This document shows positions 2 through 31,241 of a stretch of DNA of 33,855 nucleotides, one piece after another. Origin of the DNA: a virus. The translations under genes and the position numbers were made by a program. A model generated the notes under the pieces. It was not told where the DNA came from. It searched no databases and saw only the letters and a program-made list of their open reading frames with translations. The DNA is taken from positions 1-33,855 of the IMG/VR virus record IMGVR_UViG_3300027985_000576. The stretch is one strand, 5' to 3'. Numbering within the stretch: position 1 is the stretch's first letter; each line of letters begins with the position of its first letter.

Positions 2-196
2 AATAATATTACATTTAAAGTTGAAGACTCTAAAGTAAATGGAACAAAGACATTATCATTTGGTTTGTCTAATTACAATGTTCCAAATTTATCAGGTGAT
101 GGTGAGTTAGCAGTAAAATTTACTATTTCAGGTGCTACTACAGGTACAATAACTAGGACTCAATATCCAGTCAAAATGACTATTATTAATTTGTAA
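2..196 (+). CDS. C-terminal end of a structural (virion) protein, partial
   Basis: An open frame runs from the window edge to a TAA at 194-196, giving 64 residues with no start inside the window. The peptide is rich in Thr, Ser, Asn and Gly, with alternating hydrophobic residues (for example LAVKFTISG and PVKMTIINL), which suggests a beta-sandwich ending. It stops 11 nt before the next gene, whose ribosome binding site AAAGGA overlaps and follows this stop, so the two are co-transcribed. Its position upstream of other virion-type genes suggests a tail or head decoration component. The function cannot be named from this fragment. Confidence 0.7.
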   Translation, partial: NNITFKVEDSKVNGTKTLSFGLSNYNVPNLSGDGELAVKFTISGATTGTITRTQYPVKMTIINL

Positions 197-4798: not shown

Positions 4799-7700
4799 AT
4801 GCCATTTAAATACGACTATAGTAACTTTAGTTTTGATGATTTTAAGTCACAAGTTGCTAATCAAAAATCAGAAATTTTATCACAAGCTAAAAACAATAAA
4901 TTAGCTAATTTAGCCGCTAAATCTGGTATTGCCAATGAAGATGTGTTTCGTGCTGGTATGGATCAAACTTATGCTGCACTTAATTTACTGAATACAGGCA
5001 ATGAAGATCTTATCAGTAAAACAATGCGTCCTAACGGTAAAGGAAGTATTTTTGGTGATGATATTCCTTTAAACTTACAAGTAGAACGTGCTACAGATAA
5101 TGAGTTTGGCTACTTTGGTAGACCATTATCAGATGTACGTGGTGTTGGTGGCAAGAGTATTTATGAGACATTTAATACTCCTGAACAAGATACTTCTTAT
5201 AACTCTCGTTACGCTGATAAACCAATCACCGGAGAGTTTAAACCAGCCCTTCTTAAACGTATTACTGATATGGACTCAATGACGTTTCAAGGCGTTACTG
5301 ATCAACAAGGTAAACCTACTGAAGATCGTATTGCTGGTGTAGATGCTTATGAAGTATTTCATGACGATGCACAATCGAAAAAATATTTTGAATCAGCGCA
5401 AGGACAAGCCAAACTTGATAGACAAAAAGAACATTTAGCTAATTTCGGTATTATTCCTAAGCAACAAGAGCAACTACAGGCAATTGATACAGGCTTAGAT
5501 GCACTAAGAAATCGTTTAAAAGAACGTGAATCGTCTAATAACTACAGTGCTGTAAATAAACAAGGCTATGTAGGTGCATATCAATTTGGAATCGCTAGAC
5601 TTAAAGATCTTGGCCTAGTAGATAAGAATGCTCCTGATAACAATAGTGCATTGAATAATCCTAACGTATGGACAGGTAAATATGGAATAAAGAGTAAAGA
5701 AGACTTTTTAAGTTCTGAGGATGTACAAGATACAGTAGCTACTGAACATCTTAATAATTTAGCTGTTATGTTATCAGGTAATGCTACTGATGAAAAAGAT
5801 TTATATGGCAAAATTGCTGCTGCACACCTATTAGGTGTACAAGGATCAAAAGATCTCAGTAAAACTGATGCTAATAAAACTAGTGGACAAGAATACTATG
5901 ATCTTGGTAGTTCTGTAATAGGTACACAACCTACTAGTAGTAAAGAGACCGTATCTACTGTACAAAAAGAACCGACACTAACGGCGGAATCTTTTAGAGG
6001 AGTAGATCAAGATAGTATGTTAGGAGAAGCGTTAGATATTGCACAATCAAGCCTTCTTCAACAGTACGGTAAAACAGCAAAAGCTGTTAATAAAGCTGCC
6101 GTAGCTATTGGTGAAAGTCTTGGAATTAATAAAGACACAATGGAAGGTATTTTCCATGATGATTCTATGTTTGGTGGTAAATTTACTGAATATGCTAAAC
6201 AAGAAGTGTCTGACAAAATTACGGGTGTAATGGCTAAAACTCGTGAAGAACAAAAAGCTGGTATGGACAAAGCACTAGAATCCATTAAGACTGGAAATTA
6301 TGCTGATGCTGCTTGGGAGAGTTTAAAAATTCTTCCTTATATGTTAGGCGATAGCGCCGGAGAGATGGCATCAATTTTTGCTGGTGTTCCTGGTATTACT
6401 GCAGCAGTAGCTGCTCGTGTAAGTGAAGATGCTGAAACATATAAAAAGAATAACGATAAAGATCCTAGTGCGCATTGGATGATTGGTAGTGTATTAACTA
6501 ATGCTGCTGCTTTATTTGGTGAAAAATTCCTTATCAAAAGTGGTGTAGGTGATATCATTGAAAAAGGTTTAAGTAAAGCTAAACGGGTTGGTGGTGTAGC
6601 TGCAAGTACAGTAGGAGAAGCAGTACAAGAATACTACGATCAAACACAACAAGAGTATATGACTCAAAAAACTGGAGAAAAAACTCTTGCTGAAATTGCT
6701 ACAAGCCCGGAAGCACAGTTGGCAGCAGTCGCTGGTGGTGTTATGGGTGGCGCTCTTCGCGGTGCTGGTGAGATCGGTGGTGCTGCAATCGATACTGGTA
6801 AACCTTTATCAGAAAAACTTAATGCTGAGATCGAACGTAGAAAAGCCGCTAAAGCCGCCAAAGAAACTGAAGCAGTTGTAGGTGAATCTGTAAAGCTATC
6901 TACTACATACGGTGGAGTAGAAGCTGTAGCTACAAGGGAAACAGAACACAAAGACTCTATCGATAAAGCTATTGAATCTGGTGATATTCGTGGTGCTGTA
7001 GAAATTCTTAAAGCGTATAAAAACGATCTATCAAATGACTCTGAAAAGCTCATGAATAATGAGGAATTTGAGCAACGTTTAGCGACTGTTAAAAATATGG
7101 TAAATAAGACGTATAATGCTATTAACGAAAGCAAAGCAGATAAGAGTTCAGTAGATACCTTTGGTAGTTCTCCTGATCTAATTGATACAGCAATGTCTGA
7201 TATTTCTGTAGATGAAGCAGAAACGTTTTTACGTAATTATAAAAAAGCAGCAGCACAGTTCGGTAGCGATCCTGTCGGTACTACACGCATCGAACAACAT
7301 ATAAATGCTAAAAAAACGTTAGCTATGGTAGAAACTGACGTAGCTACGGACATAAAAGCAAAAGCTGAAGCTGTACAAAATGCTGCTACTCCGTCCGAAA
7401 AAGAAACAGCAGTTGTTGAGTTTGAACGGTTTAAACAAGACCGTATTGATACAAGCAATAAACTAAATAACTGGCTTAAAAGTATCGAACAAGAAATTAT
7501 GTCTGAAGCTGAAACAATGGTTCAGAATAAAGAAGCTAAAAACACTACTAATGCAGTGCGTAAAATAGTAGCTGAAGAACAGGCTAAACGCAAAGCTAAT
7601 AAGCAAAAAGTAGAATATAAAGGTCAAACATACTATAATCCATACGAAACTAAGAATGTTCTTAAGAAAAAGACTGATGGTGTATGGGTATATGATACTA

Positions 7701-10700
7701 CATACGCTTCTAAAGAAACAATTGCTAGACGTGTTATGTCTAACTTAATGGGTAAAGATCCTGAAATAGTAGGTATTTATACATTACAAAACGCAAAAGA
7801 TACAGAACTGCAGGCGTTTAATGCTGCAGCTGCATTGGCGGGTATTGATACAAAAGCTGACATTGCTAAAGCTAAAGAAGCCAAAGCAAAAGTTGAGAAA
7901 TCTATCACAGAGCAGAAAAAAGCTACTCCCAAGAAATCGGAACAAGTTTCGGATATGGAAGCAGAAAAGATTGCATATGAAGAAACAAAAACTACTCCGA
8001 AAAGTATTGAAGAAGTAACTGTTGTAGAGAAACCTGCAAAACTTGAAAAACTGCGTGCTGAAGTTAAGAGACGTAAAGAAGCAAAGGCTGTTAAAGAAAC
8101 TGAAAAAGCTGCTATGATAGTAACTGATAGTATTATCAAAAAGTCTAAATTAGCTTCGGCTATGCAAAACCCTTTAGTGGCTAAGAGTACAACTAGTAGA
8201 TTAGCAAATGATTCTGAAGCAGGTGTACAACTTAGTGAACTACTATCTACTCTAAGCGATAAACTTGATATCGATAATATTGAAAAAATTATTGCTGATA
8301 AGTTTACACTAAATGTATCTAATACGATTGAGCGTTATCGTGCAGTAGAAAATGATCCAGCTCGTGTATTGTTTTCTGAAGAAGGTACATTAGATTCTAA
8401 TGCAGTGGCTGCTATAAGCAAAGCACTAATAGAGTATTTACTTAAGTATGGAAACAACATTCTACTTCAGGATCGTAATCAAGTAGCTCAAATGCTAGGA
8501 TATGGTGATAACGTAGAACTAGTTCCTGCTGAAGCGTTCAGTAAACTTGGAGATAAAGTATTTAAGAAAAATGTAGCTGACGTATTAGCTAAATCTATTA
8601 TGAAAGATCTAGGTATTAAAATCCGTGCAGGGGTAGATGAAGACCTTATTAAAGTGTATGGAGATGTATTCTCTAAAGCAATAAAAGCAGGACATGCACA
8701 TCAAATGCCTAATAGATTTGAAGAGAAATTTATAGCAAGTTTAGGGCAAATGGCAGCGATTATTGGTGGAGAAATTGGCATTTTTACTAAATTAGATGCT
8801 GATGATCGTCCTGTACTTACACAAGAAGAATACGCAAGAATTGCAGCAGGCGATATAGAAGTAACAAATCCTGAGTTAAAGATGGACTTAATTGGTATCG
8901 GTCCATTAGGTAAATCTCTTGTACGTAATAAAGACATGTACGATACATTTAATAAAGCAGCTAAAGAGTTTACTGAAGGTACATATGTAAAAGAAGTACG
9001 TACTGAACCAATTTCAAGTAAAAAAGTAACTCATCGTGTAATTGCAGATGTATATAACGTAAAACAACAATCTATAGATGTCATTAACAAAGAACGTAGT
9101 AAACCTTGGAGACTTGATACAGAAGCTATCGATACTTTTGAAGGTATGAAAGATACTATGAAATTTTACATGGGTTACATGACTGATAAACAAATGGAAG
9201 AACTATCCTATGTAGACTATGAAAACCAAACAGCAAAAAATAATGCTATAACACTTAAACTTGATTTATTGAATAACCTGGTCAATAGACTTGGTGAAGA
9301 CAACGTAGATGCTGATTTATTTTATGAATGGTTCTATGGTTCTAATGGTCGTTACTACTTAGATAATAATGAAGTAAATCCGCAGAATGATACATTTAAT
9401 CGTTTCATTGTAGGTCTGAAATCCAATAGAGTAACTGTTGATCTATCAAAAGAAGATGCAAATAGTACGAAAACTTTTTATATAGCTTTAGCTCAATCAT
9501 TCGGGAAAGATATTGATAAAATGAGTATTGAAGATTCCATTAAAGCCGGTAAAGAACTGTTTGATATGGGATCTAAAGAATTAACAAATCTTATTAATGA
9601 TACAGAGAACTTTGAGCCGGAAGCGATAGGGCATACTATTCAAGGACTTCTTGCCGTTAAAGCTGCAGAAAAAGCTAAAGGTAAAGCGTTTGATACTAAT
9701 CTAGTAATAGAAACAGACGCAGTTACAAGTGGTATTATCCTTAAGTTACTACAACTACCTTTAGTACAAGACGTAAAAAACTTGCTGAAACGTGGTGGAA
9801 TTATTTTTGAAGACCAACCAGAATACTCTACGTTTACAGGTACAAATAAACTAATTGCAGACGGGCAGTTAGACTTATACCGTATGTTAGCACAGTCTTA
9901 TGGTAAGGCAATTACATCACATCTAGATAGTAATGTTTGGAAGGTCGATACTAACAATCTCGATGATACAAGTTTAAAACGTGCTTTAGCTACTAATAGT
10001 AGACGTGAAGCAGTACTTAAGGCTTCAAGAGATGGTATTATGCCTATTTTTGAAACCGAAGGTGACAAAATTAAGGGTAAACTACGTAGTATCTTTAAAC
10101 CCGTAGTTATGGTATTTGGATACGGTGGTGGTATTGGTAGCATTAAACGTAAATTTATTGGAGAAATAGTAGAAGAACTTCCTACAAAACTAGTAAAAGA
10201 GCTTTATAAATATCAAGATGATATGAGAAAAGGTAAAGTAGACAAAAGCTATAATATGCCTATACTTAACTTCTTTAAAGCACTAGATAAGAAACATGCA
10301 AATACTACATTTAATATTACAAATGTAAGACAAGCAGATGCTTTAATCAAATCGCTATTAAACAAAGATATACTTAACACAAAAGTATACGGTAAACAAA
10401 CATTACGTTCTATAGCGATGTCAGATATGACTGCTTTGTATGGCGATACTTTGAGTAAAGCACTTGAGGATATCTTTGGTTCTGATCTAATTAACGCTAA
10501 TACTACTATTAACAATGCGTTTAGAATGATGTTTAGAATCTTTAACCATAACTATAACCAGAAGTTAAAAGAATTTGCTGAAAAGACTGGACATGAAGCT
10601 AATGCAGAAGAAAAAGCTACGATTATCTTAGATATGAAAAAAGAATTTCCGGCTGTAGCACCTCCTTTTGCAAAGAATGATGAAAAAGGTATTATTATCG

Positions 10701-11767
10701 ACCAAAAGACAAGTCCTGATACGTCAATAACTGCACAAACTTTAGGTTCATACAAACGTAAAGGTACTAAGGATTCTATGTCAATTGCTGCTGTAGTTAA
10801 AGAATTTGAAGAAGCAATTAGTGCAGGTAACGTTGTACCAATTCACTATATCGATGCTGCTATTATGGGACAAACATTACTTAATGTAGACGGTATCACA
10901 CAAGTATTTGACGCTATTGTAGCTAATCTAGATAATGCAACGGAAGCTAACCTAGAATACAATTCGCAAGTAATTGAAGTATCAAAAAATTATAGTCTTA
11001 CTGAAAAAGTATTAGAATCTTTAGATAGTGCTATTAGTACATTAGATGCTAAGACTAGGGCATTGTTTAATGATGAGACAGCAACAAATGAGTATGTCAT
11101 TACTGGAAGATCTGAAGAAGATGCTTCTATTACTCTAGATGCCGTAGTCGAAGCAGTAAATACATTACATACTACTGCAACAGCAAAACGTAAAGAACTA
11201 TTTAGTCAAAATATAAAATCTGATCACATGACAGGATTAGGTGCTGTGGTAGAAATAGATAGGAATGGTAATGTAGTAGAAAGTAAAAAGGCTGAAACTG
11301 CTAAAGAAGAATCTAAGACAGAAGTTGCTAAAGCAAATGAAGAACCACAAGGCAAAAATGATAATATACCAGCTATTAGTGTAGCTGAACCTACTATAGC
11401 AGAACTAGCTTTAATAGAAAGAGATTTAAAACAGGCTTACAAAAATTTAAGACAATTTAAATCCAATAAAAAGAAAGAACAAACAATTAAACCTGTTAAA
11501 AATTTAAAAGGTAAAGCTCTAGAAGTATCTGAAGCGGCAGAACCTACAATTGGCGGATCTGAAGAAGAAGCCAAAGCACGTATAGCTAAAATTTTCAAAA
11601 AAGAACTTGACGCAGACGCTATGTATAAAAACTTGTCGGATGAAGAAATAAAAGAACTAGAAGAAATGTTTGAAGTTGATTCTAAGTATAATAACGGTAT
11701 AGTACCTGAAAATAAACAAACAAAAAAAGCTAAAGAAAACGCCTTGAAGAAGGAATGTAAAAGATGA
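4799..11767 (+). CDS. giant internal virion protein with lysozyme/transglycosylase-like domain
   Basis: The 2322-aa product starts at ATG 4799 (AAAGGTACAGA-ATG). Around residues 236-345 it shows a lysozyme/lytic transglycosylase-like segment: RESSNNYSAVNKQGYVGAYQFG, written here in parts as RESSNNYSAVN and GYVGAYQFG. E244 is the candidate catalytic acid and the GAYQF motif is typical of phage internal lysozymes. Residues about 510-670 are Ala/Gly-rich and amphipathic, and could insert in a membrane. The rest is mostly charged helix. A Lys/Glu/Ala linker is repeated at residues 674-691 and 1085-1102. Size, lysozyme motif and the partner gene fit a genome-ejection protein of the T7 gp16 type. 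Its stop overlaps the next start as ATGA, so the two are translated together. The domain call is by motif only. Confidence 0.75.
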   Translation: MPFKYDYSNFSFDDFKSQVANQKSEILSQAKNNKLANLAAKSGIANEDVFRAGMDQTYAALNLLNTGNEDLISKTMRPNGKGSIFGDDIPLNLQVERATDNEFGYFGRPLSDVRGVGGKSIYETFNTPEQDTSYNSRYADKPITGEFKPALLKRITDMDSMTFQGVTDQQGKPTEDRIAGVDAYEVFHDDAQSKKYFESAQGQAKLDRQKEHLANFGIIPKQQEQLQAIDTGLDALRNRLKERESSNNYSAVNKQGYVGAYQFGIARLKDLGLVDKNAPDNNSALNNPNVWTGKYGIKSKEDFLSSEDVQDTVATEHLNNLAVMLSGNATDEKDLYGKIAAAHLLGVQGSKDLSKTDANKTSGQEYYDLGSSVIGTQPTSSKETVSTVQKEPTLTAESFRGVDQDSMLGEALDIAQSSLLQQYGKTAKAVNKAAVAIGESLGINKDTMEGIFHDDSMFGGKFTEYAKQEVSDKITGVMAKTREEQKAGMDKALESIKTGNYADAAWESLKILPYMLGDSAGEMASIFAGVPGITAAVAARVSEDAETYKKNNDKDPSAHWMIGSVLTNAAALFGEKFLIKSGVGDIIEKGLSKAKRVGGVAASTVGEAVQEYYDQTQQEYMTQKTGEKTLAEIATSPEAQLAAVAGGVMGGALRGAGEIGGAAIDTGKPLSEKLNAEIERRKAAKAAKETEAVVGESVKLSTTYGGVEAVATRETEHKDSIDKAIESGDIRGAVEILKAYKNDLSNDSEKLMNNEEFEQRLATVKNMVNKTYNAINESKADKSSVDTFGSSPDLIDTAMSDISVDEAETFLRNYKKAAAQFGSDPVGTTRIEQHINAKKTLAMVETDVATDIKAKAEAVQNAATPSEKETAVVEFERFKQDRIDTSNKLNNWLKSIEQEIMSEAETMVQNKEAKNTTNAVRKIVAEEQAKRKANKQKVEYKGQTYYNPYETKNVLKKKTDGVWVYDTTYASKETIARRVMSNLMGKDPEIVGIYTLQNAKDTELQAFNAAAALAGIDTKADIAKAKEAKAKVEKSITEQKKATPKKSEQVSDMEAEKIAYEETKTTPKSIEEVTVVEKPAKLEKLRAEVKRRKEAKAVKETEKAAMIVTDSIIKKSKLASAMQNPLVAKSTTSRLANDSEAGVQLSELLSTLSDKLDIDNIEKIIADKFTLNVSNTIERYRAVENDPARVLFSEEGTLDSNAVAAISKALIEYLLKYGNNILLQDRNQVAQMLGYGDNVELVPAEAFSKLGDKVFKKNVADVLAKSIMKDLGIKIRAGVDEDLIKVYGDVFSKAIKAGHAHQMPNRFEEKFIASLGQMAAIIGGEIGIFTKLDADDRPVLTQEEYARIAAGDIEVTNPELKMDLIGIGPLGKSLVRNKDMYDTFNKAAKEFTEGTYVKEVRTEPISSKKVTHRVIADVYNVKQQSIDVINKERSKPWRLDTEAIDTFEGMKDTMKFYMGYMTDKQMEELSYVDYENQTAKNNAITLKLDLLNNLVNRLGEDNVDADLFYEWFYGSNGRYYLDNNEVNPQNDTFNRFIVGLKSNRVTVDLSKEDANSTKTFYIALAQSFGKDIDKMSIEDSIKAGKELFDMGSKELTNLINDTENFEPEAIGHTIQGLLAVKAAEKAKGKAFDTNLVIETDAVTSGIILKLLQLPLVQDVKNLLKRGGIIFEDQPEYSTFTGTNKLIADGQLDLYRMLAQSYGKAITSHLDSNVWKVDTNNLDDTSLKRALATNSRREAVLKASRDGIMPIFETEGDKIKGKLRSIFKPVVMVFGYGGGIGSIKRKFIGEIVEELPTKLVKELYKYQDDMRKGKVDKSYNMPILNFFKALDKKHANTTFNITNVRQADALIKSLLNKDILNTKVYGKQTLRSIAMSDMTALYGDTLSKALEDIFGSDLINANTTINNAFRMMFRIFNHNYNQKLKEFAEKTGHEANAEEKATIILDMKKEFPAVAPPFAKNDEKGIIIDQKTSPDTSITAQTLGSYKRKGTKDSMSIAAVVKEFEEAISAGNVVPIHYIDAAIMGQTLLNVDGITQVFDAIVANLDNATEANLEYNSQVIEVSKNYSLTEKVLESLDSAISTLDAKTRALFNDETATNEYVITGRSEEDASITLDAVVEAVNTLHTTATAKRKELFSQNIKSDHMTGLGAVVEIDRNGNVVESKKAETAKEESKTEVAKANEEPQGKNDNIPAISVAEPTIAELALIERDLKQAYKNLRQFKSNKKKEQTIKPVKNLKGKALEVSEAAEPTIGGSEEEAKARIAKIFKKELDADAMYKNLSDEEIKELEEMFEVDSKYNNGIVPENKQTKKAKENALKKECKR

Positions 11768-14700
11768 GTTGTATTAGAGCACAAGGATACAAAGAGTACC
11801 AAGACGTAACAACAGAATATCTTGTCGAAGAATTTGGAATGACTCCTGAAAAAGCAGAAGTTGTTGCGTATAATGACTGGAAAAACTATGTTATTGAAAA
11901 TAGTTCAGCAAAAGAAGCACAAATATTTACACAGATTGCAAATGCTGATGGTAGTATTGATGTACATTTTAATGGTAGTTTAAAACCTACTCGTATGCGT
12001 CTTGTAAACGTCGACGATGATAGTAAATACTATACGGTAGCTCTTCAAAATCTGAGCAGTAAAAATATATACGAATACAAATTTCTACACGGTCAAAGTA
12101 GAAGTATTGACGTAGATCGTAAGTTGAAAACAGGTGGTACTAAACCACAATACATTACTATTGATAATATGGGTAATATATTTGGAAGTTCTGACGATGT
12201 AAATATCAATCCTGATCTATATGATAAGCAAGAGCTTGATCTGTTAAATAACATCGAAAATAGTACTGCTATGTTAGATAAACTTGCTGATATAGATGGT
12301 ACTGATTTATCAGGTAAACATCGAGCTAGACTAGGTGAAGTTTTGGGTATGTTTGTTAATAACCACAAAAACTTTATTCCTGAAATGAATGTATATCTTA
12401 ATAAAAAAGCAGAAAAAGTTGGTGGTATTTTAAAAGTAGATGATGGTATCTACCTAGGAGTAAATTCAAGAGGTAAATTCACAAGTACAGATATCAGTAA
12501 TTCAGAAATGTACGTTGAAGAGATTACACACGCTGCTACAGTATTTGCTATAAGTTCTGGTAATCCTGCAGCTAAAAGTGCTTTTACACGAATTCAACAA
12601 CTTAGAGACCAAGTACGTGAAGAACTACGCAAGGACTTTGGTAATGATATGTGGAAAGCATTTTTACCAAAGACTAGCGTAGATCCTGTGTACGAAGAAA
12701 AACAAGCTAAAAAGATGTTTGACTATATCTTCAATAATGAAAAGACAGGTATTGAAGAGTTTATAGCAAAAGGGCTTACTTGGGAAGTATTTGCAGAAAA
12801 ACTTGACAACATTAAAGTAAACAAACCTGTAGAGAGTGAACCTGAAACTATATATCAAGCGCTAGTACATTACTTAAATAAAATATTTAAATTTACAGAA
12901 CGTATGTTTAAACGTGAAGGTTTTGATACAACAGCAACAGATGTTCTTGTTCGTATGAGTGCTCAATTAGCTCAAGCAAATAATACTGCAATCAAACGTA
13001 CCAATAGTAACAAATTTGTAGAGTCTGTATTTGAACGAGTCGATAACTTGGACAAAGTAATGTCTGATTGGACTAAAAAACAAATAACCAGTAAACAAAA
13101 ACTTATGAATCTCCCTAAGCCTCCCAGAAAAGGTGCTAGTAGATTAGAACACATAGTTTACATTGGAAAACTAATGCCATTTTTATTAGGCAACCGGGAA
13201 GGTCAGATTGCTGTAAAAGAACTTATGTATGCTCTTGGTATGAAGTATGGTAATGACATTCAAACATTTTATAATCAACTTACCGATCCAGATAATATGG
13301 CTAGAGCTGTAGAATATTTAGGACTATTAAATGAGAATGTTGATCGTGCTCGTGAGACTAGAGCTAAAATTACAGCAATGGGAGTTACTGAAGGGTTTAA
13401 ACAGTTTAGTAAAGAAGAAAAAGAATCTCTTACTATCGCAGGATTAGATACTGATTTACAAGCTATTTACGGTGATTACGATGTAGTAGCATTACTTGAA
13501 GATGAAGAGCGTCTAAAAGTTGAATTGTCAATACTACGAAAACAACTTCGTACTAAAACAAAAAACAAAGAAACAAGTAACTATTACATGGCACAAGCAA
13601 AAGGTCTTGGTTACTATTTGGCTACTCATCAAGCTAAAAGTACAGCACAATTAATGAACGCCACATTAATCGCAAAAGGCCATAACAGAATTGGACGACT
13701 ACGTACACCAGATGTAGATGAAGAAACAATTATTATGATCGACCAATTAGCTACAATGGAAGCGTTACTATATACTCCTACAGAAGCTAAAACTAAATTA
13801 GCTAATCTTATAAAACGTGAACCACAAGGTATGCAATACGTTATGGATTTAAGTGAAGGTATTATCAAAGAAGCTAGAATGAAGACTTTTGATGATGAAC
13901 TTGGTATGATGAAAGGCTATACTAAAGAAATTTTTGATGAAGATGTAACAGTTGTTATACGTCCATCAAAAGATATAGCAAAATTAGCGAAAGACGGATT
14001 CAAGAAAGTAGTAGATCTAAAAAAAGCACCTGGTGATACATCATCTACGGCGATGGCGATGTACGTAAATGAATGGCATGCACAACAGAATCTAAAAAAA
14101 GGTGCATTACGTTACACAGATTTACACACTCGTGGTACAACACTATACGATGCACACAACGCAGATGATGAAGCATTAGCTGCTGAACGTTCTAAAATTA
14201 ATGTTATATCTGTAGAGACAGCCAGTATCAAAGAGATAAGAGCTATGGAACTTGGTAAGTTTGATTTTGAAAATACAGATGATAGAAATTTAGTACCTGT
14301 GTATGGTAGAGACGGAAAAGTATCTAACTATAGATATATGATGAGTAAACGTGCAAAACGTGAATATCTACGTCAAGATATCAGCGCACCTGCGGTATTA
14401 GGTAGAACTGTTGCTAGTATACAAGATAAGATAAATACTGAAGATCATAATAATAAAGTTTTTGATATCATTAAAGAAGATATGAAAAACTATAATGATG
14501 TAACTGGAAAAAGCAATGTACCAGGAGCTAGATATAGATACTATAAGTTAGAAGCAAATAGTCCAGATCCTCAGATAGAAGACATTTGGAAAATTCTACC
14601 AAAACAGATTAAGCAAAAAATGAAAGATAACAATATGCCATACCTGGCAGTAAGAGCTGATCTGTTTAAAGCATACTTTGGTATGAGAGAGTGGGGCCTA

Positions 14701-15777
14701 TTTGATATGATTGGAAATATACCATTGGTAGGTGAAGCACTGGTCGAACTAACGCCACAACAGTTAAAATACATCATGAGAGTAGCTGAACAAATCTGGT
14801 CTAATGTAGTCAATCTAGCTAAGGTAAATATAATTATTAAAATACCAGAAGTACTTATTCGTAATATTATTTCTAATATAATGATTGCGCCTATGTATGG
14901 ACACTTTAATATAATAAAGGTAGCTCAATTGCAACTACGTGGGACAGTAGGATTATTTGATTATCTTGAAAAAGTACACGAACTTAATCGTCTTGAAAAT
15001 GCAAAAATGGCTGGAAATCCAAACAACTTAGACATCGATAAGATTAAAAGTTTAAAAGAAGACTTGAAAAAACATCAAGTAGCAGATTTAGTTGATGCTG
15101 GAATGTTTCAAGCGATTGTTGAAGAGATGGGGAAAGATGAATTTAAGAGTAGTAATAGAGTAGCAAGATTTTTTGATAAGCAACTGGATAAGGTTCCAGG
15201 TTATGTTAAAGATGGAGCACACCTACTGTTTCTTACAGAAAAAACTAAATACTTTAATTTTATGACTAAAGCAACACAGTTTAGTGATTTTGCTTCAAGA
15301 TATGCTTTATACGAACTTGAAAAAGAAAAGCAGGTAAGTAGATTAAATGGTAAGTTTGATGGTAAGAATATTATTCAAGTGGGAAATATTCCTTATTTTG
15401 AAGAAGTTGAAAATAAGGATGAGTGGGTTACGCGGAGTAAAGCAAAAGAGATGCTGCTTTCTAGATTGAAGGATATAGTATTAGATACTCATGTTAATTA
15501 TAGTAAACTAGACGGTCCTGTTATGGATTGGTTAAATCGTGTCGGTTTAGCGATGTTTACTAAGTATGCGTTTAGGATTCAGAAACCTAACGTGAAAGCT
15601 GCAATAGACCATCCATTATACTATTTCTCAACTATTGGGTTACAACGGTTTATAGGTAATGTTGATGACATCAGTGACAGTTTTGCAGGACATTTAAATA
15701 AGTTCGGCAATACATCCGCCTTTACAGGACTAGTAGATGATTTACCGATATACCAAGCTATGAAGAACGTGTTCTAA
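11764..15777 (+). CDS. giant virion-associated protein, probable ejection partner
   Basis: The 1337-aa product starts at ATG 11764, within the stop of the 2322-aa gene (ATGA), with AAGGAATGTAAAAG upstream as ribosome binding site. It is hydrophilic and helical. A more hydrophobic stretch lies near residues 1010-1065 (around VNIIIKIPEVLIRNIISNIM), and the conserved-looking C-terminus includes HVNYSKLDGPVMDWLNRVG. No enzymatic motif was recognised. The sequence does not look like a DNA or RNA polymerase. Coupled translation with the lysozyme-bearing giant protein suggests both are needed in fixed ratio, probably in the internal virion complex. It ends 4 nt inside the convergent gene on the other strand. 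The function is inferred from context. Confidence 0.65.
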   Translation: MSCIRAQGYKEYQDVTTEYLVEEFGMTPEKAEVVAYNDWKNYVIENSSAKEAQIFTQIANADGSIDVHFNGSLKPTRMRLVNVDDDSKYYTVALQNLSSKNIYEYKFLHGQSRSIDVDRKLKTGGTKPQYITIDNMGNIFGSSDDVNINPDLYDKQELDLLNNIENSTAMLDKLADIDGTDLSGKHRARLGEVLGMFVNNHKNFIPEMNVYLNKKAEKVGGILKVDDGIYLGVNSRGKFTSTDISNSEMYVEEITHAATVFAISSGNPAAKSAFTRIQQLRDQVREELRKDFGNDMWKAFLPKTSVDPVYEEKQAKKMFDYIFNNEKTGIEEFIAKGLTWEVFAEKLDNIKVNKPVESEPETIYQALVHYLNKIFKFTERMFKREGFDTTATDVLVRMSAQLAQANNTAIKRTNSNKFVESVFERVDNLDKVMSDWTKKQITSKQKLMNLPKPPRKGASRLEHIVYIGKLMPFLLGNREGQIAVKELMYALGMKYGNDIQTFYNQLTDPDNMARAVEYLGLLNENVDRARETRAKITAMGVTEGFKQFSKEEKESLTIAGLDTDLQAIYGDYDVVALLEDEERLKVELSILRKQLRTKTKNKETSNYYMAQAKGLGYYLATHQAKSTAQLMNATLIAKGHNRIGRLRTPDVDEETIIMIDQLATMEALLYTPTEAKTKLANLIKREPQGMQYVMDLSEGIIKEARMKTFDDELGMMKGYTKEIFDEDVTVVIRPSKDIAKLAKDGFKKVVDLKKAPGDTSSTAMAMYVNEWHAQQNLKKGALRYTDLHTRGTTLYDAHNADDEALAAERSKINVISVETASIKEIRAMELGKFDFENTDDRNLVPVYGRDGKVSNYRYMMSKRAKREYLRQDISAPAVLGRTVASIQDKINTEDHNNKVFDIIKEDMKNYNDVTGKSNVPGARYRYYKLEANSPDPQIEDIWKILPKQIKQKMKDNNMPYLAVRADLFKAYFGMREWGLFDMIGNIPLVGEALVELTPQQLKYIMRVAEQIWSNVVNLAKVNIIIKIPEVLIRNIISNIMIAPMYGHFNIIKVAQLQLRGTVGLFDYLEKVHELNRLENAKMAGNPNNLDIDKIKSLKEDLKKHQVADLVDAGMFQAIVEEMGKDEFKSSNRVARFFDKQLDKVPGYVKDGAHLLFLTEKTKYFNFMTKATQFSDFASRYALYELEKEKQVSRLNGKFDGKNIIQVGNIPYFEEVENKDEWVTRSKAKEMLLSRLKDIVLDTHVNYSKLDGPVMDWLNRVGLAMFTKYAFRIQKPNVKAAIDHPLYYFSTIGLQRFIGNVDDISDSFAGHLNKFGNTSAFTGLVDDLPIYQAMKNVF

Positions 15778-25162: not shown

Positions 25163-25837
25163 TTATTTAGCAAACTTACTACGTTTAGCAGATGCAGCCG
25201 GAGCAGCTTTAGTAGAAGTGGAAGAACCACCTTTACGTGCTTCAATCATAGCAGTAACTTCTTCTTCTGTAACATCACGGTATCCAACGTCACCAAAATA
25301 TTTGGATTGTTTTTCAAACCGTACACCAACTTCAGATTCATTAATAATTTCATCAGCAGAAGCATTATCGTTAGCCCGGAAGAAACCTTTAACAGTACGT
25401 TGTTCACCGATAGTACCATCTTTTTTACGGTAGTAGTCTTGTTTAATCCACATCTTAACTTCTACGTCTTCAAATTCTTCAAAGATAGCAACATCTTTTT
25501 CAGAACCACCTTTACCGATAGGAAGAGTAGCTTCAACCGGTTCAAAGCTAGTTTCGATATCTACATCGGCAATTGTACACAGACTACCAAATACTTTTTG
25601 ATTACCCTCAAGAATTTTAGAGTTATCATAAGTAGCCATAGGAAGAGCTCCATACAGCATTTGTTTGTTATCGTTTCCAAGATCTACGTAAAACCCAATA
25701 GAGGTAGCTCCGTGTTCGTTTTGGTCTACAGTTACAGCAAGAATAGTTACACCATAAACACCAGAGGTAGCAATAAATGTAGTACCACCTGTAGGTTTAG
25801 CAACGTCTTCTTTTGTAACGCTTAATTTGAATGACAT
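25163..25837 (-). CDS. putative single-stranded DNA-binding protein
   Basis: The 224-aa protein has a beta-rich body (residues ~1-150) with alternating strands (GVYGVTILAVTVDQNEHG, GFYVDLGNDNKQMLYG, VEVKMWIKQDYYRKKDG, TVKGFF). A flexible Ala/Ser/Lys tail follows (SSTSTKAAPAASAKRSKFAK). An OB-fold-like core with a low-complexity tail, next to a Sak4-like ATPase, is the usual place and shape of phage SSB-like proteins of the Sak4 module. The tail here is basic rather than acidic, unlike T7 gp2.5 or bacterial SSB. No strong family motif was recognised, so the call rests on context and composition. The start at 25837 follows AAAGGACATGAA. Confidence 0.55.
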   Translation of the reverse strand: MSFKLSVTKEDVAKPTGGTTFIATSGVYGVTILAVTVDQNEHGATSIGFYVDLGNDNKQMLYGALPMATYDNSKILEGNQKVFGSLCTIADVDIETSFEPVEATLPIGKGGSEKDVAIFEEFEDVEVKMWIKQDYYRKKDGTIGEQRTVKGFFRANDNASADEIINESEVGVRFEKQSKYFGDVGYRDVTEEEVTAMIEARKGGSSTSTKAAPAASAKRSKFAK

Positions 25838-25884
25838 TTCATGTCCTTTATAAATAATTTTTTGAGGTAGTTATACACTCAGCA

Positions 25885-25910
25885 GAACACTAGGGAGAGA
25901 TCTAGTGCTC
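25885..25910 (-). repeat. hairpin, 9-bp stem
   Basis: GAACACTAG (25885-25893) pairs with CTAGTGCTC (25902-25910) over an 8-nt loop, with one wobble pair. It lies about 50 nt upstream of the SSB-like gene start on the minus strand. The right arm CTAGTGCTC is repeated at 26172-26180. No T run follows on the minus strand, so it is not an obvious terminator. Confidence 0.7.
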
Positions 25911-26026
25911 AGATGAAGGTATAGGTATAGGTGGTAGGATTCGAACCTGCTACTCACCATTTACTTCTTCATAATTAAAATAGTGCCTAGATATCTTTAT
26001 AGTCCGCTCTAGGCTATAGACTTTAT

Positions 26027-26125
26027 TTAAACTACTATCATTACTGACGCATTACGAAGACTCGTCTTGGGTTTTGTTTAAATTACGATGTACCATACAC
26101 CGTTATTCCACTTATAGTAGTTTAA
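26027..26125 (-). repeat. 12-bp perfect inverted repeat enclosing 75 nt
   Basis: TTAAACTACTAT (26027-26038) and ATAGTAGTTTAA (26114-26125) are exact reverse complements. The enclosed 75 nt contain a smaller ACGA/TCGT hairpin. The long-range pairing would fold the middle of the gene-free region into a closed domain, as in structured RNAs, or could extrude in DNA. Confidence 0.75.
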
Positions 26126-26187
26126 GTAAGCACACCAGTTTGTTTTACAGGTTTAGAGAATGTCTGTTGTGCTAGTGCTCTGCCTAA

Positions 26188-26214
26188 CCTAGCCAAGAGT
26201 GCACTCCCGCTAGG
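26188..26214 (-). repeat. palindrome-centred hairpin
   Basis: CCTAGC (26188-26193) pairs with GCTAGG (26209-26214). Between them lies the 10-nt perfect palindrome GAGTGCACTC (26197-26206). It begins about 14 nt after the Sak4 stop codon in the direction of transcription. It has no following T run; it could be a protein-binding site or an RNA stem. Confidence 0.65.
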
Positions 26215-26227
26215 ACGTTATATTGAC

Positions 26228-26896
26228 TTAAATAGTCCATTCATCAGCTTCATCAGCTGCAGATTCAAGCAGTTCAATGTGCGCATTAATATCAAATTCA
26301 CCCATTTCAACAGAATCAGGCACATTTTCTTGAAGAGTACGACAAGGAAATTTCGGAGTACGGTAATGTACAATCCGTTTACTACCTTTGATTTCAATAA
26401 AGACAGCTTCATCGGTAACAGATAACCAACTACCGTTTTTACCGAAACTACCCGGTGCATTAATTTTGTATTTCTGTGTCTCTTGATCATACTGACAGTG
26501 AGATGTAAAGATTACATTGATACCTGCTGGAAGGATACCATCTTCAAGATATGCATTTAATTCAAGAATATCTTTACCAAGACCTGCCCATACAGCAAAA
26601 CCTGTAGCTTTTTCGCTCCAGTATTTTTCCATATTATTAGCAAGGTGAGTAACAGAATCGATAACTAAAGTACGAGGAAGTTTTCCAAATTTTTCTTCGT
26701 AAGCTTCAAGTTTTTCTGCAGTAGTATTTGTGAGTTCGTCTAGACCGTTATATTCCGAATAACGAAAGTGAGCAACTTTGCCACGGAATGCTTTGTTATC
26801 TGTAGACATAACAAGAGCATCTTCAAGTTTACTAATTAAAGTAGTTTTACCAGAGTTTTCAAGAGCGACAACTCCAAATTTGATTCCGTTTGCCAT
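26228..26896 (-). CDS. Sak4-like RecA-family ATPase (AAA_24 type)
   Basis: The 222-aa protein begins with a P-loop GVVALENSGKTTLI (Walker A, residues ~8-21; the usual first Gly is Ala11) and Walker B RTLVIDSVTH (D80). It continues with a RecA-like core including INVIFTSHCQY (sensor-like segment, about residue 140) and a polar acidic tail. Phage Sak4 proteins are single-strand annealing/recombination ATPases that act with a cognate SSB. The putative SSB gene follows next on the strand. The start at 26896 has AAAGGAAAATAAT upstream, lying within the 57-aa zinc-ribbon gene. Family placement is strong; direct recombinase activity is inferred from relatives. Confidence 0.82.
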   Translation of the reverse strand: MANGIKFGVVALENSGKTTLISKLEDALVMSTDNKAFRGKVAHFRYSEYNGLDELTNTTAEKLEAYEEKFGKLPRTLVIDSVTHLANNMEKYWSEKATGFAVWAGLGKDILELNAYLEDGILPAGINVIFTSHCQYDQETQKYKINAPGSFGKNGSWLSVTDEAVFIEIKGSKRIVHYRTPKFPCRTLQENVPDSVEMGEFDINAHIELLESAADEADEWTI

Positions 26897-28205: not shown

Positions 28206-28465
28206 TTAAAATCCTCACAGGTTATATATTTAGGTTTGTAGTTAATTGCTGCATGTTCTAATTCAGCTTCAGCTTTTAACTCATTACAATATTGTTTAAT
28301 AGCATATTTAGCAGTACCTTCAGTAGCATATGTCCTTGGTTCACATCCATAATAATAGCAATCTTCGTGTAGTGAAGTCCAATATCGAATTAACCATAAA
28401 AAATGAGTTTTTCGTTCGGCTATATATCTACCATTATCAAGTAAACGTATTCTAAACTGTTTCAT
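28202..28465 (-). CDS. hypothetical protein, 87 aa
   Basis: The product starts [20 protein letters not shown], continues with Trp/Tyr-rich beta sequence ([15 protein letters not shown]) and ends in a helical Lys/Glu-rich segment. The ATG at 28465 overlaps the end of the DNA polymerase exon 2 by 14 nt and is preceded by AAGGAATTAGATG, lying inside the polymerase coding end. Tight coupling to polymerase and the nuclease suggests a role in the same module. No family is recognised. Confidence 0.6.
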
Positions 28466-29354
28466 CTAATTCCTTTAATACTTTTTTAATGTCTTCTATA
28501 GATGCATTAGTAGGAATTTGGTGAAGACTTGCCCAATCATATCCTATCTCACCAGTTGCTTCGTTTTTTACGATCTGATCAACGATAAAATCAGTAGCCA
28601 TAATACTTGTAATATTATCATTCAGCCATTTAATAACTTCTGGATCTTTTTCTACAATCAAATAAATCGAATCGTAGATAGTAGAAGTTACTTGAATTTT
28701 ACTATGCCAATCTTTTTCATCTAGTAAACTATGAATTTTGTTAATAGTCAATGCAGTAAGAATTGACCAAAATTGACAAGTACCGTTATTCAGTGTTCTA
28801 ATATCACGTCCTGGATTATCAGTACGTAAATAGAAACCCATACCTAAATGAACACGTTTATATTTTTCCGCGGTAGTTAATACGTAGTTTTCTCGATAGT
28901 CAGTAATTCCTGGGTATAATGTAAAGTGGTAATTCTCAAAAATCTTAGTAGCTTCTTCAAGACTAATCTTAAGAGATTTAGATACTTTAGGTGGATATGC
29001 TCCATAACTTAAACCAAAGGTTGCTGGTTTACCTTTTTGTCTAATTGCTTTAAGTTCTTTATGCCCTTCTTCACAAAGTCTAAAAAATTCTTTTACATCA
29101 GTTACGGTATCACCTGTAAGTTCCATATACTGAGCAATTTCATCACGAAAATACCCATAAGCATTCAAACAATGACCATCAAGTTCCTGAAGAAAGACGT
29201 TACATTTATTTTCATCTTTTGTTAATGACGCAATAACACGATCTTCAAGTGCGGAATAATCAATTGCATATACTATATAACCTTCAGGTGCAATAAAACA
29301 GCGTTTTATAGGTTTACTATAAATTGATCTAGTACTTGGTGTATTAAGCATATT
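28452..29354 (-). CDS. polA: DNA polymerase family A, exon 2 (palm and fingers)
   Basis: The exon encodes 300 residues (318-617 of the 617-aa spliced protein). Motif A is [13 protein letters not shown] (catalytic D349). Motif B is [14 protein letters not shown] (R422, K426, F430, Y434). Motif C is [12 protein letters not shown] (D545), where the usual H-D-E is Y-D-S. The exon starts at codon AAT 29354 after the group I intron; joining it to exon 1 gives GRYTSKKP-NMLNTPS, equivalent to the conserved TGRLSSxNPNLQN of Pol I. An ATG at 29351 is an internal codon rather than the true start. The enzyme replicates the phage genome; proofreading would come from the separate exonuclease gene upstream. 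Confidence 0.92.
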
Positions 29355-30290
29355 CCTTATGTTCAGTACAAGGCGTTAATTTGTACTCGGGATTTTACCC
29401 AGCTGCATATTACTATACAGAGCAGACTATATCAACACCCTCATGGGGTGGAATCCGTTTCGGATCACTTGATCCTACGAGCATTTCAGCTCTAGTCGTT
29501 AGGCATTTGAATAATGTTCTTAGGACGATCATAAAGACCGTATTTATCAATAAGGTAATTTACGTGCAAAGCAGCTTCTTCCTCACTATTAAATCGTTTA
29601 CGTTCAAGGTTTTTACCTTCATGACGAATAGTAGCAGTCCATTTACCTCTAGCTTTATCAAAACCTACGTTATGGTAGATGGAGGTAGGATTAGGTAAAT
29701 GTTTTTTACCCAAACTATTTTTATTAGTATAGATTTTATTGTATGTTCCAGTAGCCATACTATACTGTTTGTTGTGGCTTCTAGAACACCATTCTAGATT
29801 TGTTACTGCGTTATTGCTCTTAACTTCATCTTTATGGTTAACTTCCGGTAGTTTATCAACATTTTCTAGAAATGTTTCTGCAACTACTCTATGTACTAAT
29901 TTTTTTGTACGCACAGTGTTAACTCTAAAATCTATACAGGCATATCCTTTGTTGTTTATATAAAACTTCATTAGATTACCACGTTTATTTCTTATTTTAC
30001 CTAAGTCAGAAACTTCATAAAAGTTTTCAAAGCCTTTTACTGGTTTCCAAATTTCATTATTATTTAGCACGGGATTGTCCTTTATGGTATGTTTAAATGT
30101 AGGTGTATTTTATACCACTTCAAGTTAAATATACCTTAAGTGGGAGTTTCCCCGTTTAGGATTCTTTCAACATAACATTACTGCTATGAGGCCCTGTGAA
30201 ATACTTAAAAAGTGATAGCAATATTCACCGATTTATCATTTGTTTATTTTCATCAATCGAGGTTTAATGCTTATTTAAATAAGGTTCTCA
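29355..30290 (-). ncRNA. group I intron (T4 td-like) in the DNA polymerase gene
   Basis: On the minus strand the 5' part contains CCTAAACGGGGAAACTCCC (30142-30160) and GACAATCCCGTGCTAAAT (30062-30079). These match the P3/P4 core strands of the T4 td intron. The 3' part contains AAATGCCTAACGACTAG, the AAGTGATCCGAAACGGAT hairpin, GATATAGTCTGCTCT (P7/P3 3' strand) and a td-like end, CTGAACATAAGG. The intron ends in G and the upstream exon ends in T, as group I introns require. Boundaries were set by restoring the polymerase motif. No convincing P1 guide pairing was found, so the 5' edge is less sure. Length is 936 nt, with an HNH ORF looped between the core halves. Confidence 0.88.
29492..30070 (-). 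CDS. intron-encoded HNH homing endonuclease (NUMOD4-HNH-AP2)
   Basis: The 192-aa protein has a NUMOD4 module (IWKPVKGFENFYEVSDLGKI, residues 7-26). An HNH core follows, with LVHRVVAETFL (H), EVNHKD (N-H), and NNAVTNLEWCSRSHN (N). The C-terminal AP2-like DNA-binding segment runs over about residues 130-178 (GVGFDKARGKWTA, then RKRFNSEEEAALHVNYL; start written from the frame). It lies wholly within the group I intron. Its GTG start and AAAGGA site fall in the ribozyme core, and its TAG lies in the P7 strand, so translation and folding compete. It would cut intronless polymerase genes to spread the intron. HNH residues look intact. Confidence 0.85.
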   Translation of the reverse strand: MLNNNEIWKPVKGFENFYEVSDLGKIRNKRGNLMKFYINNKGYACIDFRVNTVRTKKLVHRVVAETFLENVDKLPEVNHKDEVKSNNAVTNLEWCSRSHNKQYSMATGTYNKIYTNKNSLGKKHLPNPTSIYHNVGFDKARGKWTATIRHEGKNLERKRFNSEEEAALHVNYLIDKYGLYDRPKNIIQMPND

Positions 30291-31241
30291 AGGTTTCTTA
30301 GATGTATACCTACCGCTTTTAGCCCCTAGTAGATTATACTCGCCGTGTAGACGTAATGTACCATCGTTATGTAAAATAGTATACTTATAAAAAGCATTAA
30401 TAAAATTATTACGAACGATAGCAGCAAATGAATGATCAATAAATGCTTGATACAGTTCTAGTAATACAGGTTCATCTTCTGTACGTTGTAGTTCTTCAAT
30501 TTGATCTCTACCCCAACTAGGAAGACCTGTTTCTTTAGAATAAGCTAGTGGTTCAATGTTTAACCATTCAAATAATTCTTGCTTCTGTTTAGAAGATGCT
30601 GGGTTAAATGATCCCATCACTTTTTCAAATGATATATCCATAATCTGTTGGTAGTATGATTTATTATAAATAAGTGCTTTATCTCTAGCCAATCTCTCCA
30701 TAGCCTCTTTTGCCCGAGTACTATTAGGATCTATTGTTTTTTTAAGCAATCGTTTTAATTCATGATACTCTTCTGCATAAGGTTTAACATCCCTAGCAGA
30801 CCATTTTGGTATACCTGGAAATACTTCTTCTATTGGAGTAACTATATCATATAGCGTTTCTGCATTATCTTCAATAAATACTGACATATAATAGCTACGA
30901 TGTATCATATCGTTTGCTTTAAATGGCTTTCTATAGAAATTAATATCACGCATTTTAGATTGCAGTTCCTGTTTAAGATTTTCTGCTACTGCTGGATATT
31001 TATCTTTAAGAAACTCTTTAATGCAGAGATTGTTATCGATTGTATCTTGTACTTTTTCTAAAATACTATCTAATTGTAGTTCTAACTCGTGAACTTTATT
31101 TAAATCAATTGGTAGACCATTATGCATAATACGTACAGTATCTGCTACTAGATACTTAGCTACGTTTTCATAAAACCATCCATCCGGAAAATTTTGGTCT
31201 TTAGGTTCTGCTAAAGGAAGTAAATCAATTGGACATGTCAT
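30291..31241 (-). CDS. polA: DNA polymerase family A, exon 1 (N-terminal part)
   Basis: The exon encodes residues 1-317. ATG 31241 follows AAAGGAATAAA. Most of this part is the helical thumb and connecting region. It ends LLGAKSGRYTSKKP, the start of the conserved Thr/Ser-Gly-Arg motif before motif A. The reading frame hits TGA at 30288 just after Pro317, which is where the intron begins. Without splicing, a 317-residue inactive fragment would result. No 3'-5' exonuclease motifs are present in this exon; they are in the adjacent ORF 11 nt upstream, which has its own stop and start signals. Confidence 0.9.

Follow-up and report, generated by a model that had tools for sequence, protein, structure and literature searches.

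A two-hairpin RNA element conserved in five phages lies just past a stop codon at the head of noncoding tracts

The question raised by this locus is what occupies the 390-nt noncoding spacer that separates a Sak4-like ATPase gene from an SSB gene. The window, i.e. the whole 33.9-kb stretch of DNA analysed (positions 1–33,855 of IMG/VR record IMGVR_UViG_3300027985_000576, a fragment), derives from an N4-like phage by gene content, with a virion RNA polymerase (two ORFs), PhoH, ribonucleotide reductase, thymidylate synthase and an HU-like protein. Its replication genes include SSB, Sak4, an exonuclease and a DNA polymerase, and the replication operon is on the minus strand. BLAST comparison with isolated phages finds no relative of this region of the window. 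Profile matches agree with the earlier note in placing the spacer between a Sak4-like ATPase gene and an SSB-like gene:

26228–26896, minus strand: Sak4-like ATPase gene, 5′ of the spacer (phrog_124, E 2e-16)
25838–26227, sense strand minus: noncoding spacer of 390 nt, with no ORF of more than 33 aa wholly inside (fold z −2.66)
25844–25849, minus strand: SSB Shine-Dalgarno AAAGGA, outside strong stems as judged from sequence and fold
25163–25837, minus strand: SSB gene, 3′ of the spacer (phrog_743, E 1e-10)

The gap is real and is the longest same-strand gap of the window, but its true extent is 390 nt rather than the 367 nt (25861–26227) given earlier; the start at 25861 merely omits the SSB ribosome-binding site. 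It is slightly wrong that all other same-strand gaps are under ~110 nt, as gaps of 112, 140, 150 and 217 nt are present, those of 140 and 217 nt adjoining an HNH insertion. An HNH endonuclease ORF (29492–30070) sits between two DNA polymerase ORFs (28452–31241) that abut in the family profile (11–313 and 315–609 of 611), as either a homing-endonuclease insertion or an intron. The virion RNA polymerase (4799–15777) consists of two ORFs (2322 and 1337 aa) with a 4-nt overlap, both matching phrog_2206.

The dense secondary structure claimed for the spacer holds for the spacer as a whole (1 of 100 shuffles folds as well) but its sliding windows are not top-ranked; among 120-nt folds the best plus-strand spacer window has a z of −4.1 (rank 3 of 563) and the best minus-strand window a z of −2.6 (rank 20). 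The former (25861–25980, SSB-proximal) outfolds nearly all other 120-nt stretches of the window; nothing in the analysis indicates that the spacer yields an RNA from the plus strand. The motifs singled out from the sequence are all present, including the perfect 12-bp pair enclosing 75 nt (26125–26114/26038–26027; such a length occurs in 0 of 300 shuffles), the palindrome-centred hairpin (26214–26188, with a UGCA loop), the 9-mer GAGCACTAG at both spacer ends (26180–26172 and 25910–25902) and the T-loop-like GGTTCGAATCC (minus strand, 25947–25937). As a set, the five inverted repeats are unremarkable, perfect 6–7 bp arms with short loops being equally frequent in shuffles (P 0.49–0.57). Above chance level are three features: the 12-bp stem with its perfect pairing, the T-loop of tRNA type, and the folding of the spacer overall (z −2.7). 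From the Sak4 end to the SSB end the spacer contains:

26188–26214, minus strand: hairpin hp1, with a 6-bp outer stem CCUAGC/GCUAGG, a 1-nt 3′ bulge, a 5-bp inner stem and a UGCA loop
26130–26183, minus strand: hairpin hp2, GCA/UGC (26183–26181/26132–26130) plus CACUAG/CUGGUG (26177–26172/26138–26133), with a long loop
26136–26148, minus strand: motif GUAAAACAAACUG on the 3′ side of hp2, of a form common to all five copies by direct reading
26027–26125, minus strand: 99-nt domain with the perfect 12-bp stem UUAAACUACUAU/AUAGUAGUUUAA (0 of 200–300 shuffles; predicted pairing probability near 1)
25985–26014, minus strand: hairpin GCCUAGA/UCUAGGC, 7 bp, at chance level (P 0.57)
25930–25958, minus strand: tRNA 3′-half remnant, T-arm GCAGG-UUCGAAU-CCUAC in a hairpin, with no acceptor partner
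25885–25910, minus strand: hairpin GAGCACUAG/CUAGUGUUC, 5′ of SSB (local hairpin z −6.6)

The first ~95 nt past the Sak4 stop codon, containing hp1 and hp2, form an element whose pairing is conserved. In the nearest relative (locus L001 on the 80-kb contig G001), the Sak4 and SSB proteins are 80% and 72% identical to those of the window, and the syntenic gap is 455 nt long, structured (z −3.0), and contains an intact tRNA-Ile. The two spacers have no significant local similarity; over their full length, their global alignment scores above those of shuffles (P 0.003), at ~44% identity. When they are aligned by sequence only (MAFFT), the RNAalifold consensus of the first ~100–110 columns forms two hairpins with a z of −10.5 against 200 column shuffles, each refolded. 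There are 20 pairs, nine changed on both sides and none broken, and sliding the partners by 1–3 columns reduces pairing to 30–43%. More weight belongs to the column-shuffle test and to copies identified independently than to these pair counts, as the structure was chosen on the same alignment. Conservation and covariation in relatives, whose absence the earlier note had named as grounds for rejection, are found for the 5′ part of the spacer only.

A covariance model built from the window and L001 finds nothing more among the first set of loci. Scanning a viral collection with an hp1 pattern identifies L094 (model R1, E 5e-6), and the L094 MazG-like gene led to L102, with the element at the same place (R1, E 9e-5). 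A four-sequence hp1 model finds a fifth copy, L141, in G004, the contig of Sak4 relative L014; this match is weak (R2, E 0.008 per genome) and has two hp1 pairs broken. The window hp1 scores 50.9 bits against model R2, and all covariance-model E-values are rough, given a short calibration. The five copies are all on metagenomic contigs, and model R3 finds another copy in 0 of 40 related contigs. Other pattern matches (L095–L100, L119–L128 and L130–L136) were rejected as lying inside ORFs, having an unpaired outer stem, or being without covariance-model support; L127 (R2, E 0.023) is inside a 370-aa ORF and its pairs are broken.

The copies have a common anatomy. In hp1, a 6-bp outer stem is followed by a single bulged nucleotide on the 3′ side, a G-U-rich inner stem of 3–5 bp and a loop of UGCA; the flanks UAACG and (A)GGUU are largely conserved. 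The hairpin starts 13 nt after the stop codon in the window, and 10, 9, 7 and 11 nt after it in L001, L094, L102 and L141 respectively, the upstream gene being MazG-like in two of the three further N4-like copies and ClpP-like (named by eye) in L141. The stem sequence of hp2 varies, yet the stem forms every time; nine pairs are kept in L001, four with double changes, analogous hairpins are present in L094, L102 and L141 (aligned by eye in three copies), and the 3′ side carries the motif GURAAAA..AACUG.

Across the five phages 51 of 54 hp1 pair cells hold (94%) and seven of the 11 pairs change on both sides, one of them appearing as five pair types; the CCU/AGG pairs were unable to vary in the pattern-found copies because the search pattern fixed those bases. 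Double-change cells number 13 as against 3.8 in shuffles, and the covariation score is reached by 0 of 500 shuffles. G-U pairs are kept in hp1, and mark the sense RNA strand because they would be mismatches on the opposite strand or in a DNA cruciform. The element is thus present in five phages, with its pairing kept by compensatory changes and its strand marked by G-U. Together, hp1 and hp2 seem to represent a family of phage RNAs not described before, of which the fold but not the sequence is kept in the four other phages. The earlier proposal of an undescribed phage ncRNA is supported for the 5′ ~95 nt (with the alifold z-score, the five-phage hp1 covariation and the lack of an Rfam match in its favor) but not for the remainder.

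The same pairs bear on whether the spacer acts as DNA, either as the replication origin, which the earlier note had offered as one of its options, or as a cruciform. It lies among replication genes and has a long perfect inverted repeat, but GC skew makes no turn at 26 kb (on a contig that is a fragment), the conserved G-U pairs of hp1 are unusable by a DNA cruciform and point to RNA, and the copies occupy non-equivalent genome places. With no supporting signal, an origin or cruciform is highly improbable. The hairpin promoters of the N4 virion RNA polymerase have a 5–7 bp stem and a 3-nt loop, in contrast to the 11-bp bulged stem and 4-nt loop of hp1, whose kept G-U pairs also argue against a DNA hairpin.

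Another option was a structured cis-acting leader, in which SSB or another factor binds the RNA and tunes SSB translation, as for T4 gp32. Autoregulation of SSB mRNA is known in T4 and RB69, and at the T4 gene 32 leader SSB itself binds a target in its own mRNA (PMC535899). As in T4, structured RNA lies 5′ of a phage SSB gene, and relatives commonly have a hairpin shortly before SSB (mean z −1.54, n = 50), as they also do before Sak4 (−1.09). Owing to the 9-mer repeat, a 13-bp long-range stem enclosing the whole spacer can form in competition with the last hairpin (base-pairing probability 0.92 by single-sequence folding); this stem was discarded, being incompatible with the covarying hp2. Unlike the T4 leader, the conserved part comes after the stop codon of the preceding gene, and further copies are found away from SSB. 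A T4-type structure at the SSB ribosome-binding site, which is not sequestered, is not found; the conserved hairpins end at 26130, at least ~290 nt from the SSB start. Because three of the five copies are located elsewhere and most Sak4-SSB relatives have short gaps only, control of SSB is unlikely as a general function of the element, and we consider an SSB leader improbable.

The tracts behind the element differ greatly. Intact same-strand tRNA genes follow in three of the five phages: L001 has further hairpins, tRNA-Ile and a domain closed by 11 bp; L102 has a conserved segment of 170 nt, then a degenerate piece resembling tRNA-Asn, and tRNA-Ile; and L094 has ~500 nt, tRNA-Val, ~760 nt (z −3.0) and six more tRNAs. 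L094 and L102 have in common a 210-nt structured segment with 76% identity and conserved pairing (alifold z −3.3). In the window a tRNA remnant follows, and in G004 there is no tRNA near the element, which is ~200 nt from the next ORF. The association with tRNA islands is suggestive, and is not a rule. G001 contains 12 tRNAs above the Rfam cut-off, one in the Sak4-SSB spacer, and clusters of tRNAs lie at 51 and 72 kb. These clusters include two irregular tRNA-like RNAs missed by ARAGORN (L089 975–1060, and L090 about 65–165, minus strand), of which one is Ser(UGA)-like and one has UUAAAAU replacing the T-loop. The window spacer resembles these phage tRNAs and degenerate tRNAs in its setting, but hp1 and hp2 form no cloverleaf and only a T-arm is kept.

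Behind the element in the window are the 12-bp domain, for which no homolog was found, the T-arm with no other part of a tRNA, and the last hairpin before SSB. The T-arm with a UUCRANN loop is located at 25950–25934 with four of five pairs; its loop is the sole strict T-loop of the window, and 22 of 28 positions are identical to the L102 tRNA-like 3′ half. Across the strands of relatives (329 kb), the strict T-loop gives three matches at two loci, both with real tRNA-Lys genes. Neither ARAGORN nor RF00005 at default thresholds predicts a tRNA in the spacer, and ARAGORN -m (default) and Rfam predict no tmRNA; ARAGORN settings for tRNAs with introns, tmRNA and mitochondrial-type tRNAs yield low-score noise only. 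The best candidate acceptor partner (6 of 7, at 165 nt) is not convincing, and the exact T-arm/acceptor pattern has no match in the viral and genome collections.

This part of the spacer, the 3′ two thirds, is variable with no alignable homolog, and may be degenerate tRNA cargo. The whole locus could be a decayed tRNA or ncRNA cargo site and nothing else, with small insertions coming and going between Sak4 and SSB and the window holding a functionless remnant. The T-arm without an acceptor partner and the failure to find a tRNA even allowing introns fit such decay, as does the wide variation in gap length and content among the ~70 Sak4 relatives fetched for comparison, the majority of which have gaps of only 20–90 nt, mostly without the element, and others small ORFs or structured sequence. 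However, decay accounts for the 3′ part and not for hp1 and hp2, with their nine double changes at ~44% spacer identity, and the hp1 pairing recurs after other genes; we judge this explanation unlikely for the locus as a whole.

The Sak4-SSB gap is an insertion hot spot, with small inserted ORFs in L018, L025, L037, L040, L057, L064, L065 and L067. The structured look of the long spacers in L040, L057, L064, L065 (first part) and L067 was set aside as that of small ORFs, by eye, and in further long spacers (L059 and others) the 'tRNA-sized' domains, whether tandem or closed, are mostly at chance level. A group I intron (RF00028, 92.9 bits) interrupts Sak4 in L074 (6441–6706), and the same search finds none in the window spacer; Sak4 likewise looks interrupted in L072 and L073 (AD45-P1 group).

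The constant position of hp1, 7–13 nt from the stop codon in five of five copies whichever gene precedes it, would also suit an element serving the translation or mRNA end of the upstream gene, i.e. a hairpin behind the stop codon that stops 3′ exonucleases or limits ribosome run-on independently of tRNAs, and the lack of a tRNA near the G004 copy agrees with this. A simple barrier hairpin, however, needs no conserved UGCA loop, bulge, flanks (UAACG..AGGUU) or second hairpin, and tRNAs follow in three of the five phages; such a role seems rather unlikely.

We favor, with a probability of roughly 0.55, the reading that this is a conserved two-hairpin RNA that heads a noncoding tract between operon genes, is part of the operon transcript, and caps the tract. 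On the minus strand no promoter-like site reads into the spacer, and an intrinsic terminator (a stem then a U run) was not found in it, so the element is probably within the operon transcript, and would be transcribed on the minus strand together with the replication operon. A post-stop stem-loop heading a tract with tRNAs fits a signal for cleavage or end protection; the element may protect the 5′ end after cleavage or be the processing site, and mRNA would thereby be separated from stable RNA. The tract behind it in the window is mostly lineage-specific sequence, and includes the 3′ half of a degenerate tRNA.

Nearest in setting to this two-hairpin RNA are GOLLD and ROOL, structured noncoding RNAs of phages and prophages that lie beside tRNA islands and rank with the largest RNAs that have no assigned function. 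GOLLD RNAs often exceed 800 nt, as compared with ~95 nt for the conserved part here. With Rfam 15, the window, L001 and L094 tracts match no family except tRNA, neither GOLLD nor ROOL giving a covariance-model match, and no common sequence is seen. Searches of open-licence papers gave no account of such an element for N4-like phages. As the linker of GOLLD can contain tRNAs (PMC12286853), hp1 and hp2 might tentatively be taken as the 5′ domain of a new tRNA-carrying ncRNA family that is GOLLD-like but unrelated in sequence, a possibility we regard as doubtful; if true, the L094 RNA would span a ~2-kb ORF-poor tract with seven tRNAs, and the hp1 loop, a palindromic (G)UGCA(C), might join two RNAs through loop-loop pairing.

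Another short, covarying RNA family in N4-like phages, its 5′ boundary clearly set just past a stop codon, would be easily tested. It would bear on how phages excise stable RNAs from operon transcripts, and on possible roles in tRNA maturation or counter-defence. The case also shows that genuine RNA genes missed by Rfam can be signalled by raw gaps in tightly packed phage operons.

The L094 tract (9633–11583, minus strand) includes two further noncoding stretches besides its seven tRNAs and is a candidate large phage RNA; it has no Rfam match besides tRNA, and pieces of it recur in L102 and L104. Beside it and the MazG-like gene is a DUF2829-like ORF (L094 12040–12318), which we take by eye to be Tad2-like.
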